A stretch of DNA of 64,000 nucleotides from Nitrososphaerota archaeon. Its GTDB lineage: Archaea > Thermoproteota > Nitrososphaeria > Conexivisphaerales > Conexivisphaeraceae. This document shows positions 6,255 to 30,736 of this stretch, one piece after another (the first letter of the stretch is position 1; every line of letters starts with the position of its first letter). Below the pieces are notes generated by a model, which saw only the letters and a list, made by a program, of their open reading frames with translations, did no database searches and was not told the DNA's origin. The position numbers and the translations under genes were made by a program. Location of the stretch: NCBI GenBank assembly GCA_015522695.1, contig WALT01000010.1, positions 1 through 64,000 on the forward strand, in the 5' to 3' direction.

Positions 6255-7829
6255 CTAGGAATATCCTTTCCCCTCCATCTGGAGCCTCCTACGGCCCAAG
6301 AACCCGGTCAATCCCAAGGCCATGAGGAGCGCTGACAGGACTAGCAGGGCCGAGACGGATGCTTCTGCAACATATACAGCCGGAATGGAGGCGACGGCCG
6401 ACATAGCGGCCAGCAATATCGCTACCAGCTCGAGCTTCAGACGAGGCTCAGTGCCGTAGCCCTCTGGACCTACCCTGAGAGCCATGCTGGAGATCGGGTA
6501 GTATATGCTGAGGGCGAAACCGGCGAGTGATGAAGCTAGAGCCAGGATCAGAGCAGCTGAACCGTTAGCGCTCCCCAAGACTGCGAACGCCGCTGTCCCT
6601 ACGGCGTAGTAGAACGCAGAGGAGAGCAGAGAGAAAACGAGCTTGGATTTAGCGTATTCCGACCTCCTTAGGCCTGATGCGAACAAGAGCCAGCCGAACT
6701 TCCCATCGATCCTGAAGGACTGCAGCCCCAGGACCGCGGAGAATGTATTGGACACGAAGGCGACCGAGGAGGCCATAACTATGACTGGGATTATGCCGAT
6801 GGGGGCCTCAGCAGCAGATACCCCTGACAGCATGCTCACGATCACTATTGGAGGCACTACCAGGAGCGGCGCCCTCCTGACGTCTCTGAATATCAGCTTG
6901 AAGTCTTTGGCGGCCAGCTGCAGGCTGAGGAAGTGGGAGTACGAAAGGGAGAGGGGACGGGAAGCTGCTCTGATAACCACGTAGATAGGCGATGTCGAGG
7001 AGGACACGAACGCCGAAGAGCTTTTCCTGAGAGCATAGGCTCCAGCGGCCAGCCATAGAAGTGAGAGGAGTAAGGAATAGGGGCGGCTCATGAGGAGCAC
7101 ATGGAAGGGAAAGACTAGAAGCAATGGCCAACCCGCTGTAGCTGCGGTGGACGCTAGCGCATCGGCCATGCCGGCTATCGTGTGGGACAGAGCATACACT
7201 TGGTACACGAGGATGAAGACTATGGAGTAGACGGCGACGTTGGCCGCCTGCATCATCGTCGCTTTTCGTGAAGGGCCTGAGTACCTGTGACCGCCTACCA
7301 GTACAGAGAGCCCGAGGCCTACGGAGACTCCTATAGCTAGGCTCGCAGCGACTGAGATCGCGGCTGTCGCTGCTGCAACCGGGCCGCTGCCAGCCAGGAG
7401 AGCCGATAAGGGCAGCGCTGCGATCCCCCAGAGCAGCGCTAGGCTGGACGCCGTCAAGTAGGCAGCGCCTATTTCTACATCGGACAAGGGCAGCAGCCTG
7501 AGGGGTGAGGCGTGGCCATACGTCTCCAGCATCCAGGAGTTCTCGAACGCTGCTATGAACGATAGGATGACCGTTATCGCCTCGACGGCCAGGAGCCTAG
7601 AGCTGAAAGGTCCAGGGCCCATCATCAGCATAATGACGACGGCTGCACCGAACAAGTTGATCAGTAGGCTCCCTCCGAGCGAGGACAGCACCAGCTCCCT
7701 CCTGCGCGGCCTCCTGCCCCTCTCCTCATACTTGTATTTCCCCATCTGGTAGTGGGACTCCCGGAGAAGGAGCAGCGCTAGGCGGAAGACCAGTCCTGCT
7801 CTAGCTGAGGGCCCTGAGTATTTCCTCAA
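6255..7829 (-). CDS. ABC transporter permease, large multi-pass membrane protein
   Basis: The 524-residue protein has roughly twelve hydrophobic segments spread over its length, in two halves separated by a charged loop (SLQLAAKDFKLIFRDVRRAP). The N-terminal RESHYQMGKYKYEERGRR is cytosolic. The proposed TTG start at 7829 overlaps the ATPase gene by 29 bp; an ATG at 7745 would remove about 28 residues. It pairs with the ATPase just upstream as an ABC-2-like exporter of unknown cargo. Leu, Ala and Ser dominate, as expected for a membrane protein. Confidence 0.82.
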   Translation of the reverse strand: MRKYSGPSARAGLVFRLALLLLRESHYQMGKYKYEERGRRPRRRELVLSSLGGSLLINLFGAAVVIMLMMGPGPFSSRLLAVEAITVILSFIAAFENSWMLETYGHASPLRLLPLSDVEIGAAYLTASSLALLWGIAALPLSALLAGSGPVAAATAAISVAASLAIGVSVGLGLSVLVGGHRYSGPSRKATMMQAANVAVYSIVFILVYQVYALSHTIAGMADALASTAATAGWPLLLVFPFHVLLMSRPYSLLLSLLWLAAGAYALRKSSSAFVSSSTSPIYVVIRAASRPLSLSYSHFLSLQLAAKDFKLIFRDVRRAPLLVVPPIVIVSMLSGVSAAEAPIGIIPVIVMASSVAFVSNTFSAVLGLQSFRIDGKFGWLLFASGLRRSEYAKSKLVFSLLSSAFYYAVGTAAFAVLGSANGSAALILALASSLAGFALSIYYPISSMALRVGPEGYGTEPRLKLELVAILLAAMSAVASIPAVYVAEASVSALLVLSALLMALGLTGFLGRRRLQMEGKGYS

Positions 7830-8565
7830 TTTCGGAGGCCCTCCCGCTTATATGCAACATCAGCTCCTCCAGGCCCCCGGCGACTGAAGCCACCTGTTTT
7901 ACGGTCCCGTAGATCACAATCCTCCCCCCATCCAGCAGTACTATCTTGTTGCATAGCTTTTCCGCTATCTCCATCACATGTGTGGAGAAGATCACCGTGC
8001 CACCCTCAGAGGCCTTAGACCTGATGATGCCCTTTAGGACACGAGCCGAGAATGCGTCCAGCCCCGTCAGAGGTTCATCTAAGAAGAGCACCTTAGGGTT
8101 GTGTAGAATAGCAGCCACTAGCGCCACTTTCTGCTTGTTGCCCTTGGAGAGGGCGCCTATAAGCGTGTCCACATACTTGACCAGCTCGAACGCGTCTACT
8201 AGCGCATTAAGCCTGTCAAGGGCGTATTTGGAGCCTAGGCCCCTAACCCTCGCCACTAGGGAGAAGAGCTCTCTGAGGGTGAGGCTCTCGTATAGCTCGA
8301 CCGTCTCGGGGACGTAGCCGGATATCCTCCTGACGGCCATGGAATCTTCTGTGGAGTCTGCGCCTGCTACCATTACATGACCCGAGTCGGGCTTTAGGAA
8401 GCCCAACATTATCCTCATAAGCGTACTCTTGCCGCTGCCGTTAGGACCTAAGAGTCCCACGACCTCTCCCGGACCTGCAGTGAAGCTAACAGAATCTAGC
8501 GCCTTTTTACCGCTGAACTTCTTTGTGACGCTGTCGACGATCACAGCAGGCTCTTCTCCGTGCAC
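7801..8565 (-). CDS. ABC transporter ATP-binding protein (CcmA-like)
   Basis: The 254-residue ATPase drives the adjacent permease. It has Walker A GPNGSGKST (40-48), a Q-loop region around GYVPETVELYESLT, the signature LSKGNKQ (139-145, a variant of LSGGQ with K for the first G), Walker B VLFLDEP (159-165), D-loop TGLD and switch His in FSTHVM. The start is GTG at 8565. A TATA-like element on the minus strand at 8586-8599 lies about 28 bp upstream, which supports leaderless initiation at this GTG. The permease and possibly the radical SAM gene follow in the same transcript. Confidence 0.9.
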   Translation of the reverse strand: MHGEEPAVIVDSVTKKFSGKKALDSVSFTAGPGEVVGLLGPNGSGKSTLMRIMLGFLKPDSGHVMVAGADSTEDSMAVRRISGYVPETVELYESLTLRELFSLVARVRGLGSKYALDRLNALVDAFELVKYVDTLIGALSKGNKQKVALVAAILHNPKVLFLDEPLTGLDAFSARVLKGIIRSKASEGGTVIFSTHVMEIAEKLCNKIVLLDGGRIVIYGTVKQVASVAGGLEELMLHISGRASEIEEILRALS

Positions 8566-8785
8566 AACACCAAAAAATAGGGGGCCTATACTTATACTTG
8601 CTCCGACCTGCTATATCCGTTATGGCCGGCCTCAAGTCCCTTCTTGACTCTTCAGTCACGTTCTTGCTCAGCATTTCATCTCTGTCGTAGAAGTCCACCC
8701 GGACGTTCTCCATCTTGAACATCTCCTCACCGATTGAGTACTCAACGGTGATGTTGAGGACAGCATCCCTCGTGATCTCGAACAT
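8507..8785 (-). CDS. Possible small protein upstream of the ABC exporter
   Basis: A 92-codon frame with a sensible first two-thirds (ITRDAVLNITVEYSIGEEMF, DFYDRDEMLSKNVTEESRR) and an odd Cys/Arg-rich end where it overlaps the ATPase gene in another frame. It also runs across the ATPase promoter. A real gene could end with a frameshifted or decayed tail, or the whole frame may be chance. No family is recognised. Confidence 0.25.
   Translation of the reverse strand: MFEITRDAVLNITVEYSIGEEMFKMENVRVDFYDRDEMLSKNVTEESRRDLRPAITDIAGRSKYKYRPPIFWCCARRRACCDRRQRHKEVQR
8586..8599 (-). promoter_or_regulatory. TATA box of the ABC exporter genes
   Basis: Reading the minus strand, AGTATAAGTATAGG centres about 28 bp before the GTG at 8565. 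This is the spacing seen for several other starts here and implies little or no 5' leader. It is recognised by pattern only. Confidence 0.5.
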
Positions 8786-24975: not shown

Positions 24976-25143
24976 TCCGATGGAAGCCAGTTAAAGCACC
25001 CGATGGCTTTAATGTTTATCCTCCAGATCGATGATATGATCACATCCACGTTCACGCCCCAGATGAGCTCATTGAACACGATGATATGGGTGAACCACCC
25101 CCACCCTTATGGACGTGGTCTTCTTGTGGAGCTGTGATAAATC

Positions 25144-25149
25144 TTATAT
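25144..25149 (+). promoter_or_regulatory. TATA box of leuS
   Basis: AAATC followed by TTATAT forms a BRE/TATA-like element centred at about 25146.5. The predicted transcription start is about 25172-25173, exactly at the in-frame ATT proposed as the leuS start. Confidence 0.55.
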
Positions 25150-25172
25150 CCTGAAGGAAGTAGACATGGGCT

Positions 25173-28073
25173 ATTGCTAGCGGCAGGCGCGATGAATACG
25201 GTAGAAGGGTCGAGTTCCTGAAGAGCATAGAGGCCAAGTGGCAACGTATATGGGACGAAAAGAAACTGTTCTGGGCAGAGCCGGACGAGGCCAAACAGAA
25301 GTACATGGTCACGTTTCCATATCCATATGTCAACGCACTGCCACACGTCGGCTCGATGTTCACGCTTCTAAGGGTCGAGTTCACAGCCAGGTACAAGCGC
25401 ATGAGGGGCTACAACGTTCTATTTGCACAGGGCTGGCACGCAACTGGAGGTCCAATAGTATCCGCAGCGCTCAGGGTTAGGGAGGGAGACCCTAAACAGA
25501 TAGGGATACTGAGATCGATGGGGATATCTGAGGAAGAGATATCGAGATATGCGAAGCCGGAATACTGGGTCGAATATTTCTCCAGGGAGTGGAGGAGAGA
25601 CCTGGAGAGGTTGGGCGTCAGCGTCGATTGGAGGAGGGAATTCTACACAACGGGCCTCAATCCACCATATAGCGCGTTCGTGCAGTGGCAATACCTGAAG
25701 TTGCGGGAGAAGGGGCTCGTCTTCAAGGGCAGTCATCCAGTCGTATGGTGTCCCAAGGAGAAGAAGGTCGTTGGGGATCACGATAGGCCGGACGAGTACG
25801 TCGGCATCGGGCCAGAGCAGGTCACGATAGTGAAGTTCAGGGGAGGGGATGGAAGGGTGTATCCATGTCTCACATATAGACCAGAAACCGTCTACGGTGT
25901 GACGAATATCTGGGTTAGGGTTGACGCCAGATATGTGGAGGCGGATGTGGACGGTGAGAGGTGGGTCACATCGAGATACTCCTTGGAGGAGCTCGCCGAT
26001 CAAGGACATGAGATCAGGGAGCTGGGAGAGGTCGAGGGCACAGGGCTCGTCGGCATGTCCGTGAAGAATCCCGTCACTGGGGAATATGTACCCGTGTTGC
26101 CAGCTAAGTTCGTGGATCCGGAGCTAGGCACGGGGATGGTGATGTCGGTCCCGGCCCATGCACCGTATGATCATGTAGCCCTCATGGAGATCAAGAAAGA
26201 TCCTGGGTCCTTCGGTGTAAGCCGAGAGCTCGTCGAAGGGATAGAGCCGAGGAGCCTGATATCTCTTGAGGGATACGGTGACTTCCCAGCTGCTGAGGAG
26301 GTCGAGAGGGTGGGAGCTGGAAGCCAGGAAGAGATGGAGAAGCTGGATAGGGCCACGAAGAAGATCTACACGAAGGAGTATCACGAAGGGGTGTTGAAGG
26401 ATTTGTTCGGCGATCTAGCTGGCATGAAGATCTGGGAAGCTAAGGATATCATAACGGAGAGGCTGGTAGATGCTGGTGCTGCGATCAAAGCTTACACGCT
26501 GCCCTCCAAGGTTTATTGCAGATGTGGGGCTAGAACGCACATCAAGATCGTGAAGGATCAATGGTTCCTGAGGTACTCAGATCCCGGATGGAAGGACCTC
26601 GCACATTCTTGTGTCGACGGGATGAAGTTTCATCCAGAGGAGGTCAGGGACATCTTCCACAGTCAGATAGATTGGCTTCAAGATTGGGCGTGTGCCCACC
26701 AGGGTGAGTTGGGCACACGGCTTCCATGGGATGAAGGATGGGTCGTTGAGAGCTTGAGCGATTCTACGATATATATGGCATATTATACGATAGCCAAATA
26801 CCTTCAACATCCAGAGGAATACGGTATAGATTGGAGTAGACTCGGACCAGAGTTCTTCGATTACGTCCTCCTCGGACATGGGGATCCCAGGAAGGTGGCC
26901 GAAAGGGCTGGTATGAGCTTGAGGTTGCTGAAGGAGATGAAGAGGGAGTTCGAGTACTGGTACCCGGTGGACTTCAGAAACTCGGGGAAGGACCTTCTAT
27001 ACAATCACTTGATATTCTTCATATTCCATCACGCGGCGATATTTCCTCCAGATAGATGGCCTCGCAGTGTAGGAATCAACGGCTGGGTCCTCGTAGGGGG
27101 AAGGAAGATGTCGAAGACCGCTGGGAACTTCATATCGATAAGGGAGGCCATAGGGAAATGGGGAGCTGATGCCACCAGGCTCGCCAGTGCCCTTGCAGGC
27201 GATCCCGCATTAGTGGACCCGAGCTTCGATCCGAAGCTCGCCGAGCAGGCGGTGAACTTGCTCTACGAATGGTATAGGTTCTCGGTCAAGAACTACGGAG
27301 AGGGGAGGGGAGGGAGGCTCAAGGTCGACGACTGGTTTGAAAGCGTGCTAAACAGGACCGTGAGAGAGGTCACCATGCTTATGGAGGAAACGCGGTACAG
27401 GAGCGCACTGGTCAAGGGGTTCTTCGAGCTCCAGGAGGAGTTCAGGTGGTATATGAAGAGATGCGGACGTGATCCGAACGGGGAGCTCCTGAAGCTATTC
27501 ATAGAGGTTCAGACGCTGATGATGGCTCCCTTCACTCCACACCTAGCCGAGGAGATCTGGGAGGCGCTGGGGAAGAACATGCTCATAGGTGAGGAGGAAT
27601 GGCCTAGGTCAGACGGCTCCAAGATCGACAGGGACCTGGAGGCAGCTGAGGAGATCGTGCGAAGGCTTTTGGATGATTGTAGGGAAGTGCTTTCATTGGT
27701 GAAGGGAAAGCCCAGGAGATTGAAGGTGATACTGGCCAGCGACTGGAAGTATTCATTCGCCGAGATCGTGAGGGAAGCCCTCGAGAAGAAGGGCAAGGTA
27801 AGGGAGGCGGTGAAGATCGGCATCGACAGCCTGGAGCCCATGAGGAAGGGGGAGGCCGGGAGGCTTGCCCAGCTGATCTCCAGGGATCCAGGGATATTGG
27901 AGCTTCTTGTTCCATCAGACCTTGAGAGGAAGGCCATCCATGAGGCTACGGAGTTCCTCTCAAGGGAACTCTCTCTACCGATCGTCGTCGAACTTGAAGA
28001 CGGAAACCCGGAGGCGAAGGCTAAACTATCATTACCATCCAGGCCATCGATAATCGTGGAATTGGAGGGTTAA
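25173..28073 (+). CDS. leuS: Leucyl-tRNA synthetase, archaeal type, with a non-canonical start
   Basis: Charges tRNA-Leu. The protein is about 966 residues, the usual archaeal length. The class I HIGH motif is PHVGS (near residue 57) and KMSKT lies near 645 (GGRKMSKTAGNF); an editing domain (about 200-400) has YRPETVYGVTN. The first ATG is at 25305, but the frame stays open upstream and encodes EFLKSIEAKWQRIWDEKKLF, the N-terminal helix conserved in archaeal LeuRS. This frame is bounded by a TAG at 25161, and between them there is no ATG, GTG or TTG. I place the start at ATT 25173, which is where a TATA box predicts the transcript to begin. A one-base error in GGG 25168-25170 would instead give ATG 25166. 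The function is certain, the start is not. Confidence 0.9.
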   Translation: MASGRRDEYGRRVEFLKSIEAKWQRIWDEKKLFWAEPDEAKQKYMVTFPYPYVNALPHVGSMFTLLRVEFTARYKRMRGYNVLFAQGWHATGGPIVSAALRVREGDPKQIGILRSMGISEEEISRYAKPEYWVEYFSREWRRDLERLGVSVDWRREFYTTGLNPPYSAFVQWQYLKLREKGLVFKGSHPVVWCPKEKKVVGDHDRPDEYVGIGPEQVTIVKFRGGDGRVYPCLTYRPETVYGVTNIWVRVDARYVEADVDGERWVTSRYSLEELADQGHEIRELGEVEGTGLVGMSVKNPVTGEYVPVLPAKFVDPELGTGMVMSVPAHAPYDHVALMEIKKDPGSFGVSRELVEGIEPRSLISLEGYGDFPAAEEVERVGAGSQEEMEKLDRATKKIYTKEYHEGVLKDLFGDLAGMKIWEAKDIITERLVDAGAAIKAYTLPSKVYCRCGARTHIKIVKDQWFLRYSDPGWKDLAHSCVDGMKFHPEEVRDIFHSQIDWLQDWACAHQGELGTRLPWDEGWVVESLSDSTIYMAYYTIAKYLQHPEEYGIDWSRLGPEFFDYVLLGHGDPRKVAERAGMSLRLLKEMKREFEYWYPVDFRNSGKDLLYNHLIFFIFHHAAIFPPDRWPRSVGINGWVLVGGRKMSKTAGNFISIREAIGKWGADATRLASALAGDPALVDPSFDPKLAEQAVNLLYEWYRFSVKNYGEGRGGRLKVDDWFESVLNRTVREVTMLMEETRYRSALVKGFFELQEEFRWYMKRCGRDPNGELLKLFIEVQTLMMAPFTPHLAEEIWEALGKNMLIGEEEWPRSDGSKIDRDLEAAEEIVRRLLDDCREVLSLVKGKPRRLKVILASDWKYSFAEIVREALEKKGKVREAVKIGIDSLEPMRKGEAGRLAQLISRDPGILELLVPSDLERKAIHEATEFLSRELSLPIVVELEDGNPEAKAKLSLPSRPSIIVELEG

Positions 28074-28083
28074 TTCCATATCC

Positions 28084-29046
28084 CTATCCTATAATCCCTT
28101 CGCCCTCTATCACCAGTATCCTCTGAGAATCGTCCAGAGTCTCCTCGCATCCAGGGTTCAGGTACAACACGTCATCCTTCACATGACCTACTAGAAGATG
28201 GCCGTGCGTCTCCTTCAGGATCCTAGCGGCCTCGCAGAACTTCAAATGGGCTATGTCACGTGGAGTTCTAAGCTCCCTCAATCTGGCTCCCCTACTGGAG
28301 TCGCTCAGGTCCTCGACGGCCTTCACGGTATACTTCTCCGCCAGATAGCTCGCTAGGAGCCTAGCGGTTATCGCTGGATGAGCTATGAAGTCGGCTCCAG
28401 CCTCCTGGAGGAGGTGGATGGCTGCCATCGAAATCGCCCTGGCCGCTATCTTGGCCTTCTTGTTCAGGTGTCTAACTAGGAGTATAGTGTGGATCGCCTT
28501 GGACTCATCGTTCAATACCACCATGACCGCCTTAGCTCCCTTGACGCCTGCCCTGTTCAGGTCGTCGATCTCTATAGGAGAACCGATGATATAGCTCACA
28601 CCTTCAGGTCTGGTCTTCCATTCGATGGGAGTTAAAAGCGATATCTTATGGGCCTCATATCTGGCTTTCAGTTCACTGAATATTTCCTTGGCTATATGTT
28701 GATCCTCGGTGATGACCACGACGTCTGCCTCCTTCACCCTGAATAGCCCTAATTCCTTACGCATCTCGATGCTTAAAAAGAGCTCCGTGAGGGCTGAGAT
28801 CAACAACATGTAGCTCACCACACCGCTTACCGCAGCAGCGACCGCTACCATCCTACCGGCCTCGGTGTGTGGGGTGATATCGCCATAGCCGACCGTGGAC
28901 GTCGTTATCACGGACCAGTAGAGCGAGTCCACGAAGGTCAATCCTCCCTCGACCACGTAGAACAGCGAGGCGAAGACGATGTCTATGGCAGCCACGAACA
29001 GCAGCGTATAGACCAAGAGCGGGAACCTCGGGCGTACCGTCCTCAT
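28084..29046 (-). CDS. Two-TM potassium channel with TrkA-N (RCK) domain
   Basis: The 320-residue protein has TM1 (LLVYTLLFVAAIDIVFASLFYVV), a pore loop with the selectivity filter TVGYGD (51-56), TM2 (VAVAAAVSGVVSYMLLISALTELFL) and a cytosolic Rossmann RCK domain (EADVVVITEDQHIAKEI, IDDLNRAGVKGAKAVMVVLND) with a C-terminal TrkA-C-like part. This is the MthK/Kch layout for ligand-gated K+ flow. The frame is open to 29280, but that part overlaps the XPD-type gene and is low-complexity, so ATG 29046 (MRTVRPRFPLLVY) is the start. It shares a 67-bp divergent promoter region with the helicase. Confidence 0.92.
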   Translation of the reverse strand: MRTVRPRFPLLVYTLLFVAAIDIVFASLFYVVEGGLTFVDSLYWSVITTSTVGYGDITPHTEAGRMVAVAAAVSGVVSYMLLISALTELFLSIEMRKELGLFRVKEADVVVITEDQHIAKEIFSELKARYEAHKISLLTPIEWKTRPEGVSYIIGSPIEIDDLNRAGVKGAKAVMVVLNDESKAIHTILLVRHLNKKAKIAARAISMAAIHLLQEAGADFIAHPAITARLLASYLAEKYTVKAVEDLSDSSRGARLRELRTPRDIAHLKFCEAARILKETHGHLLVGHVKDDVLYLNPGCEETLDDSQRILVIEGEGIIG

Positions 29047-29075
29047 ATCCTTCACATCTATGGAGCGTAGGAAAC

Positions 29076-29085
29076 TGTTAAAGGT
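29076..29085. promoter_or_regulatory. Shared TATA element for K+ channel and XPD helicase
   Basis: TGTTAAAGGT reads TTAAAGG rightward and CCTTTAA leftward, in the middle of the 67-bp gap. It sits about 34 bp from both starts (29046 leftward, 29114 rightward), so one element may serve both directions, with leaders of about 8 nt. Confidence 0.4.
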
Positions 29086-29113
29086 TCGCTGATGATGCTC
29101 AAACACGAGAATA

Positions 29114-30736
29114 GTGGAGCTCAGGAGTTGGCAGAAGGACGCTTTACCTGAAGTGCTGGATATCATCAGACGGGGCCATATAGTCGTTGTATCTGCGCCC
29201 ACCGGTAGTGGGAAGACGATGCTCGTCCTGGCTGCAGCGATGGAACTCGACAATCCTCTCACGGTTTTCGTCAGAAGCAAAAGCCAATTCCAGGTGTGGT
29301 TCAGAGATGCATCGAAGATCGTCCCGGAAAGGACGGTATCGTTCTTAGTGGGCCAGGGTGACGCCTGTCATTTGGCAGAAGGAAGCCTGATATCGCCAGC
29401 CCCCTGTGATCTATGCCCACTCAACAGGGCCCTCAAGAAGGGCCCATACAGGGCGATAGAGGTGGGGAGACCCCCAGACATGCTCAGGGGACTTCTAGTC
29501 GAGGCAGCTGGTGAGGGCTCGTGCGCCTATAGAACGCTGCTCTCATGGGCAGACGAATCATGGCTTCTGCTAGCGTCGTATCCCTACTTGATCTCGCCCA
29601 ATGTTAGGAGGGCCGTCGAGAGGAGGATGTCGAGAAGTTTAGTGATCGTGGACGAGGCGCATAACTTGGACTCCGCAGCCGAGGAGTATTCCATGGGAAG
29701 GAAGGCCCTCGAGGCGGCGAGAAAACAGGCCAGAGATAAGGAGATCAAGAGGGTGGCAAGCGCGCTTGCCACCCTCTTGAGGAACGATAGCGGTTGGGTT
29801 GTGATCGAAAAGCCCCTAGAGCTAGCCGGTTATGCTGACCTCGTTAGAGAGGAGGCTGTGCGCTTATACGTGGCAATGGCCAGGAGGGAGGCGATCAGGA
29901 CCAACTATCTTAGGCTCATGGCCGAATTCCTGTCATATCTATCAGATACTAGGTTCAAATTATACACAGGTTATGGCAGGCTGAGGCTCATCGACCCTGA
30001 TCCTGCCTCGGTGCTCTCCATCCTTTCCTCCCCTCCAGCCGTCGTGTTGTTGTCGGCAACAATGCCACCCCCGAAGTACATAGAGAAGGTATGGGGCCTC
30101 GGCAAGGAGGTCGAGCTGGTGGAGGGAAAGCCCGGATGGGGTAGGAGGTTGGAGCTGTGTGCACCGGCCAAGGGCTTGACCACGAGGTATAAGGAGAGGG
30201 GAGAAAGGATGTGGGATGCCTACTCCAACTTCGTGAGGGACGTGTGGAGGAAAGCGGAAAAGAGCATCCTCGTCGTCTGCCCAAGCTATCGGGTCATAGA
30301 GGAGCTAGCTGGGAGGCTGATGGATCTACCGCTGCTTGTGGAGAGTAGAGGGACTAGAGCTGACGATATCGAAGCCGAGCTCAGGGCTGGGAGGAGACTC
30401 GTGGTAGCGGTGGCCAGGGGAAAGCTCGTGGAGGGTGTAGAGTTCAGGAGCGAGGACGGAGAAAGCCTATTATCGGACATAGTGGTCGCCGGCATTCCAT
30501 ATAAGCAACCGGATTCCGTGGAGGAGGAGAGGGCTAGGAGGGTTGCGAAGAGGGCTGGGCTGAGCGATAGGGATGTGTGGTTTTTTCTGCAGTTGATCCC
30601 AGCATGGCATGCCGTAGCACAGGCCGCGGGCAGAGCCATCAGGAGTGAGAGGGATAAGGCCAGGTTATGGCTTCTCGATGAGAGGTTCTCGAAGGGATGG
30701 TGGACCAAGAGGGTTTCAGAACTAGGGGTATTCTAG
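29114..30736 (+). CDS. XPD/Rad3-type Fe-S DNA helicase
   Basis: A superfamily 2, 5'-3' DNA helicase involved in repair. The 540-residue protein starts at GTG 29114 with the Q-motif-like LRSWQKDAL. It has Walker A APTGSGKT (28-35), four iron-sulfur cysteines C85, C98, C101 and C137, DEAH (180-183), VVLLSATMPPP as motif III, and the C-terminal motif VI QAAGRAIRSERDKA. All parts of archaeal XPD are present. The last arginines of motif VI argue for an active ATPase. It is divergent from the K+ channel and followed by a DHH gene with its own TATA box. Confidence 0.93.
   Translation: MELRSWQKDALPEVLDIIRRGHIVVVSAPTGSGKTMLVLAAAMELDNPLTVFVRSKSQFQVWFRDASKIVPERTVSFLVGQGDACHLAEGSLISPAPCDLCPLNRALKKGPYRAIEVGRPPDMLRGLLVEAAGEGSCAYRTLLSWADESWLLLASYPYLISPNVRRAVERRMSRSLVIVDEAHNLDSAAEEYSMGRKALEAARKQARDKEIKRVASALATLLRNDSGWVVIEKPLELAGYADLVREEAVRLYVAMARREAIRTNYLRLMAEFLSYLSDTRFKLYTGYGRLRLIDPDPASVLSILSSPPAVVLLSATMPPPKYIEKVWGLGKEVELVEGKPGWGRRLELCAPAKGLTTRYKERGERMWDAYSNFVRDVWRKAEKSILVVCPSYRVIEELAGRLMDLPLLVESRGTRADDIEAELRAGRRLVVAVARGKLVEGVEFRSEDGESLLSDIVVAGIPYKQPDSVEEERARRVAKRAGLSDRDVWFFLQLIPAWHAVAQAAGRAIRSERDKARLWLLDERFSKGWWTKRVSELGVF

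Follow-up and report, generated by a model that had tools for sequence, protein, structure and literature searches.

A conserved AUU codon overlapping an out-of-frame UUG is the probable initiation site of an archaeal leuS gene

The window analyzed here is a 64,000-nucleotide stretch of contig WALT01000010.1 from a Nitrososphaerota archaeon. On its plus strand, homology identified leuS, encoding an archaeal-type leucyl-tRNA synthetase (LeuRS) of 966 amino acids when read from an ATT codon (positions 25173 to 25175); the gene spans 25173 to 28073, with the stop codon at 28071 to 28073. The frame is bounded upstream by an in-frame TAG (25161 to 25163), and its first ATG, GTG, or TTG is the ATG at 25305 to 25307, 44 codons past the ATT. 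A TATA box (TTATAT, 25144 to 25149, plus strand) is centered 26 nt upstream of the ATT. Inspection of the sequence thus bore out three statements of an earlier, sequence-only reading of this DNA: that the ATT is in the leuS frame, that the interval between the TAG and ATG 25305 contains no ATG, GTG, or TTG, and that the ATT stands 26 nt from the TATA center. Two short plus-strand open reading frames (ORFs) lie at the start of the gene. One is a four-codon ORF (ATG GGC TAT TGC TAG, 25166 to 25180) that is out of the leuS frame and is not conserved. The other overlaps the leuS start in the +1 frame and runs for 15 codons (TTG CTA ... TGA, 25174 to 25221), opening with a canonical UUG followed by a Leu codon. 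The ATT is part of a conserved start-site motif, YYNTTGCT (25171 to 25178, plus strand; CTATTGCT in the window leuS), which emerged from an alignment of 23 loci. No other LeuRS was found in the genome, where the remaining matches were far weaker and consistent with other class I synthetases; this leuS must therefore be expressed. The gene next to leuS is convergent with it (28084 to 29280, minus strand) and shows similarity to voltage-gated potassium channels that carry a regulatory domain, scoring below the NCBIfam cut-off.

The frame preceding ATG 25305 had been proposed to encode the N-terminal helix of LeuRS, and three lines of evidence agree. The protein read from the ATT scored 969.9 bits against TIGR00395 (leuS_arch; cut-off, 648.5) over residues 18 to 963, and its match to the LeuRS of Pyrococcus horikoshii (1wz2) began at residue 16 (LKSIEAKWQ), with an E value of 5e-216. 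Pairwise comparison from codon 3 to the EKW motif gave 96, 75, and 152 differences at codon positions 1, 2, and 3, respectively, with 79 synonymous codon changes. This excess at the wobble position of frame 0 indicates that coding reaches the EKW motif. Within the same region, the motif KPRA(N/D)..RV.FLK is common to a Thermofilales group. Any gene finder limited to ATG, GTG, and TTG would choose ATG 25305, and LeuRS might be made from that codon with the upstream frame left untranslated, or an intron might supply an upstream ATG. We consider this barely credible, as a start at 25305 drops the helix present in 1wz2 and runs counter to the wobble bias upstream of it. Intron removal and trans-splicing were set aside since TATA or Shine-Dalgarno motifs directly before the start site leave little room for an upstream exon. 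Gene finders so restricted will truncate leuS in these genomes.

ORFs were also ranked by coding signal extending 12 or more codons upstream of the first canonical start, using sampled stretches of three genomes. Of the 298 coding ORFs in 373 kb from the window genome, leuS ranked first; it came second among 528 in 800 kb of a single-contig genome of the same family, and fourth among 630 in 800 kb of a Thermofilales genome. No further ATT start was recognized among the ranked ORFs of the three sampled genomes, a ranking that ATT-start genes escape if they lie outside the sampled stretches or have their next canonical codon within 12 codons. The most convincing of the remaining cases look like CTG starts. 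A TldE/PmbA-like ORF of the window genome (L106; contig C6, 1019 to 2329, minus strand), which comes straight after a TldD-like ORF, has 39 coding codons without ATG, GTG, or TTG and carries GGAGGTGA 6 nt before a CTG; it looks like either a CTG start or an indel in the run of Gs. A radical-SAM-like ORF (L119; G001, 7462 to 8598, plus strand) has no canonical start and appears to begin at a CTG, where CTGA overlaps the stop codon of the preceding gene.

Comparison of the leuS locus in relatives, a check that the sequence-only reading had recommended, revealed that ATTGCT recurs at the same place. The comparison comprised 23 NTTGCT loci from about 15 lineages: the three members of the window's family together with Thermofilales relatives. 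NTTGCT was present at the leuS start site of all three family members and of nearly all Thermofilales relatives with this leuS. The hexamer is ATTGCT in 20 of the 23 loci and TTTGCT in the other 3, which form one clade, so that position +1 is held by A (20 loci) or T (3 loci) and TTGCT occupies positions +2 to +6 in every case. Position +7 is A, C, or T and never G, and the site is preceded by pyrimidines (22 of 22 loci at −2; 21 of 23 at −1). The invariant core is TTGCT, not ATT. ATT is otherwise rare: it accounts for 0 of the 48 other Ile codons in the window leuS and for up to 35% in other loci, and the share of GCT among Ala codons in the leuS genes is 4 to 47%. With each gene's own codon usage as the expectation and lineages taken as independent, a T at the wobble position in all lineages has a P value of about 2e-14 for ATT and about 1e-10 for GCT; independence is a fair assumption rather than an exact one, as synonymous sites should be near saturation at this protein divergence. 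In three genomes, by contrast, ATG genes with Ala as the second codon used GCT in only 8 of 17, 6 of 25, and 0 of 6 cases.

The two other members of the window's family, L008 (a single-contig genome of 1.59 Mb) and L009, share 64 to 65% protein identity. The start site reads GCC ATTGCTTCC in L008 and CTC ATTGCTTCT in L009. An in-frame stop precedes it by 8 codons in L008 and by 5 in L009, and the first canonical in-frame start comes no earlier than codon 43 and codon 13, respectively. The Thermofilales relatives, at 55 to 61% identity, have the same hexamer; the upstream DNA is otherwise dissimilar. A canonical in-frame upstream start is absent from L007, L008, L009, L073, L078, L049, and L089, where the upstream stop is just 2 to 8 codons away; over all loci of this kind, the NTT follows an in-frame stop by 1 to 8 codons. 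In L066, L049, L073, and L089 the stop precedes the NTT by just one or two codons, so that the start must be the NTT or a codon no more than a few away (L073 has a CTG one codon upstream, and L066 has a GTG five codons downstream). ATG 25166 of the window has no counterpart in any species that lacks a canonical start close by. These comparisons bear on another suggestion of the earlier reading, namely, that an extra G at 25168 to 25170, an error of sequencing or assembly, hides the true start at ATG 25166. Removal of one base would indeed bring that ATG into the leuS frame. It lies only 19 nt from the TATA center, however, and L008, L009, L073, and L078 keep ATTGCT with no ATG at that place, as does L038, whose sole upstream GTG is about 10 nt from the TATA center. 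The retention of ATTGCT in relatives with no nearby ATG led us to reject the error, the probability of which we regard as negligible. The odd start site of leuS is real and ancient.

The distance from the TATA center to the ATT is 26, 26, and 27 nt in the three species of the window's family, and canonical starts of the window genome mostly lie 23 to 31 bp from a TATA-like center. The leuS mRNA of this family is therefore probably leaderless or nearly so, and judging from this spacing, the transcript very probably starts at or beside the A of the ATT. A spacing of 26 bp had been said to be shared with sufC, alaX, the thiolase gene, and the DHH gene; in a loose check, leuS fell within the range of canonical starts, and no fixed spacing was apparent. 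The idea of a leaderless leuS likewise fits the window's family but not most Thermofilales, in which recognized TATA motifs are mostly 35 to 42 nt from the site. A GGTG Shine-Dalgarno-like motif lies 6 to 7 nt upstream of the site in 14 of the 23 loci, all in Thermofilales. One start site thus appears, from these signals, to serve two modes of initiation, one leaderless and one using a short leader with a Shine-Dalgarno motif. Shine-Dalgarno spacing was dropped as a means of preferring UUG to AUU. Canonical genes show a dip at spacing 6, but this is an artifact, because the GTG of GGTG is then in frame and is taken as the first start.

At spacing 6 the GGTG places a GTG in frame at codon −3 in eight loci, and four more have a GTG or ATG at −2 to −4. 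In these 12 Thermofilales loci, the in-frame codon 2 to 4 codons upstream of NTTGCT may be the start; some of these codons lie at a leaderless distance from the TATA motif (about 25 to 29 nt from TATA-like motifs in several), and they count against initiation at the AUU. Extended to Thermofilales as a whole, this explanation makes NTTGCT an internal sequence that is constrained for some other reason, with a few species having lost the upstream start. We judge it improbable. ATTGCT is invariant in these loci too (for the seven lineages with GTG at −3, the product of codon-usage probabilities, calculated by hand, is about 7e-11), and a frame-0 GTG is absent from all of f1, from L073 and L078, and from the TTT clade. 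Moreover, the GTG is part of the GGTG motif, which in six loci stands at spacing 7 with its GTG out of frame.

Further inspection of the alignment revealed a feature that the earlier reading did not describe. A UUG lies one base past the AUU in all 23 NTTGCT loci and is followed by a CUN (Leu) codon in all 23. It opens a +1-frame ORF in every locus of the set, and this ORF is 4 to 24 codons long. The UUG persists in the TTT clade. This clade (L066, L049/L070, and L089) is monophyletic, and its +1-frame ORF is exactly five codons long in every member. In L091 (f69), ATTGTTGAC once more has a UUG whose next +1-frame codon, also UUG, encodes Leu. GAA, which does not encode Leu, takes that place in the g178/f35 clade. 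Among Acidilobaceae, leuS mostly has a canonical start at the homologous place, and in two loci (L087 and L074) it is an in-frame TTG GCT. Alignment of L087 (GGTGGTAGCC TTG GCT AGC) with L054 (GGTGGTAGTT ATT GCT AAC) indicates that the in-frame UUG start of the former corresponds to the A-UUG overlap of the ATT-type loci. The earlier focus on the ATT was therefore right about the in-frame codon at the start and missed both the TTGCT core and the overlapping UUG. The out-of-frame UUG may take part in leuS initiation, and the UUG with its CUN, the TTT clade, the TTG GCT of L087, and the pairing of the initiator tRNA (below) together suggest a part for both codons. Relative to the earlier reading, the new findings are the overlap of the AUU with an out-of-frame UUG-CUN, the TTGCT core, and the short dead-end ORF.

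One way for the short ORF to matter would be termination-reinitiation, in which it is translated and ribosomes restart in the LeuRS frame at an overlapping NTGA or NTAG codon. A restart of this type is known for narQ of Escherichia coli (PMC9841429), and the overlap codon is GTG or ATG in L040, L061, L066, L068, and L069. In the window, by contrast, the overlap falls on CTG 25218, within the conserved FLK helix, and conservation of the frame-0 protein (RVEFLK and KPRAN.ERV) begins upstream of it. These two observations rule reinitiation out as a general mechanism, and we consider it very improbable here.

We favor initiation at the AUU itself, a codon that hardly ever serves as a start. From its conservation and reading frame we infer, with a probability of roughly 0.68, that LeuRS translation starts at 25173, on a conserved AUU that overlaps a UUG, and that the protein begins Met-Ala. 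The initiator Met-tRNA (anticodon CAU) would be set on A-U-U and would place Met, and the second codon, GCU, would add Ala, so that LeuRS would begin (Met-)Ala-Ser. The site would be reached on a transcript beginning at or beside the A of the AUU, leaderless or nearly so, in the window's family and through a short leader with a Shine-Dalgarno motif in Thermofilales. A-UUG would act as an overlapping pair; since the UUG one base on opens a dead-end ORF of 4 to 24 codons, ribosomes choosing it would make no LeuRS. Such a weak, contested start would be expected to keep LeuRS low and responsive to initiation fidelity.

In five of six genomes, a pattern search found a single ordinary initiator tRNA anticodon arm (GGG-CUCAUAA-CCC). 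Its CAU anticodon can form two of the three base pairs with AUU and likewise with UUG, and A37/A38 could face the pyrimidines at −1 and −2 only with the AUU in the P site. The odd start site is not a product of chance, as leuS has the strongest coding extension among 298 ORFs and ATTGCT recurs in relatives. Two points besides the upstream GTG and ATG codons weigh against the AUU. TTT, as found in L066, L049/L070, and L089, is hardly a start codon, which suggests the UUG as the codon that matters, and the T at +6 is not accounted for by an AUU start alone. Given the conserved site, the leuS start may be a built-in control of the amount of LeuRS. Control by the gene's own product or by initiation fidelity, as raised in the sequence-only reading, is plausible. 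aIF1 promotes discrimination against noncanonical starts in extracts of S. solfataricus, according to work cited in PMC8211752; an AUU start of leuS might accordingly respond to aIF1, as infC does to IF3.

The pattern of constraint can also be explained by a programmed slip. The ribosome would settle on UUG 25174, and the initiator tRNA would slip one base back to the AUU. When leucyl-tRNA is scarce, the A site would stay empty, the slip would put GCU in it, and LeuRS would be made; when leucyl-tRNA is plentiful, the dead-end ORF would be read, so that LeuRS output would track the charging of tRNA-Leu. An invariant TTGCT (+2 to +6) with A or T at +1 and A, C, or T at +7 is what UUG-CUN predicts, and this accounts for both wobble Ts. 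The two-of-three pairing of CAU with either codon, the repeated UUG plus Leu codon in L091, and the canonical TTG GCT of L087 and L074 are in keeping with it, and it is accepted that a single P-site tRNA can slip when the next codon is starved (PMC8211752). On the other side, pairing on UUU in the TTT clade would be poor, the g178/f35 clade has GAA rather than a Leu codon after the UUG, slipping by an initiator tRNA is unproven, and Shine-Dalgarno spacing does not tell UUG from AUU. Of the explanations, the slip accounts best for why TTGCT never varies, yet it leaves the pairing in the TTT clade unexplained; it is speculative, more so than a response to aIF1, and we hold it to be doubtful. That A-UUG-CUN is a leucine-charging sensor, with LeuRS made in response to uncharged tRNA-Leu, is in our estimate unlikely. 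Were it true, neither a programmed frameshift made by an initiator tRNA nor ribosome-based feedback control of an archaeal aminoacyl-tRNA synthetase would, to our knowledge, have been described before. In that case, the prfB gene (RF2) would offer a parallel for a ribosome-level switch, as its programmed +1 frameshift lets the activity of its own product set the frame. That shift takes place during elongation, at a stop codon, whereas the leuS shift would be a putative −1 move of the initiator tRNA at the start. Nearer in domain of life is fucA1 of Saccharolobus solfataricus, the only archaeal cellular −1 frameshift in the list given in PMC8211752; its slippery site is inside the coding region, not at the start.

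For AUU initiation the closest parallel is infC (IF3) of E. coli, where, as described in PMC5472188, an AUU start gives translational autocontrol. Both genes are essential to translation and have a conserved near-cognate AUU start. infC, however, is bacterial and encodes the fidelity factor itself, and its start is policed by IF3; leuS encodes an archaeal synthetase, its AUU overlaps an out-of-frame UUG, and policing would fall to aIF1. In Streptomyces, a rare GTC start was shown experimentally to lower expression of sigR via initiation fidelity (PMC5472188); like that of leuS it is rare and noncanonical, with a different codon, gene, and domain of life. Overlapping starts in two frames (AUGUG and GUGUG) compete in E. 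coli and can lower the main product (PMC9841429). They resemble leuS in having two start codons in different frames at one site, but both are canonical, whereas in leuS the productive frame is the noncanonical one and the codons are one base apart. Two-frame overlapping starts and fidelity-controlled noncanonical starts were thus known beforehand. We found no earlier report of archaeal AUU starts or of leuS autoregulation in the open-access literature searched, and a 2021 review of archaeal recoding describes noncanonical translation events as demonstrated only in elongation and termination (PMC8211752). If the proposal is correct, leuS would provide a natural noncanonical case at archaeal initiation, in a single-copy essential gene. 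The site has no canonical in-frame codon and is conserved at the nucleotide level in two deeply diverged groups of archaea; it offers a concrete and cheap system in which to study how aIF1, aIF2, and the initiator tRNA tell AUU from UUG. It also lets one ask whether archaea regulate synthetases at the ribosome.

The LeuRS of the window's family groups with those of Thermofilales and Acidilobaceae, at 55 to 61% identity, rather than with those of its own order, at about 42%. This placement suggests that leuS was transferred early. In the LeuRS tree, the ATT genes of the window's family fall outside Thermofilales plus Acidilobaceae (SH-aLRT, 89); the A-UUG overlap may therefore be ancestral, or leuS may have been exchanged early. 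Among Acidilobaceae relatives, the leuS starts of L085 and L093 (g178) and of L080, L082, and L086 (f35) share [A/G]TTGGAATTG after GGTG. The leuS of L085 has no canonical in-frame start nearby, and another odd leuS start may exist there.
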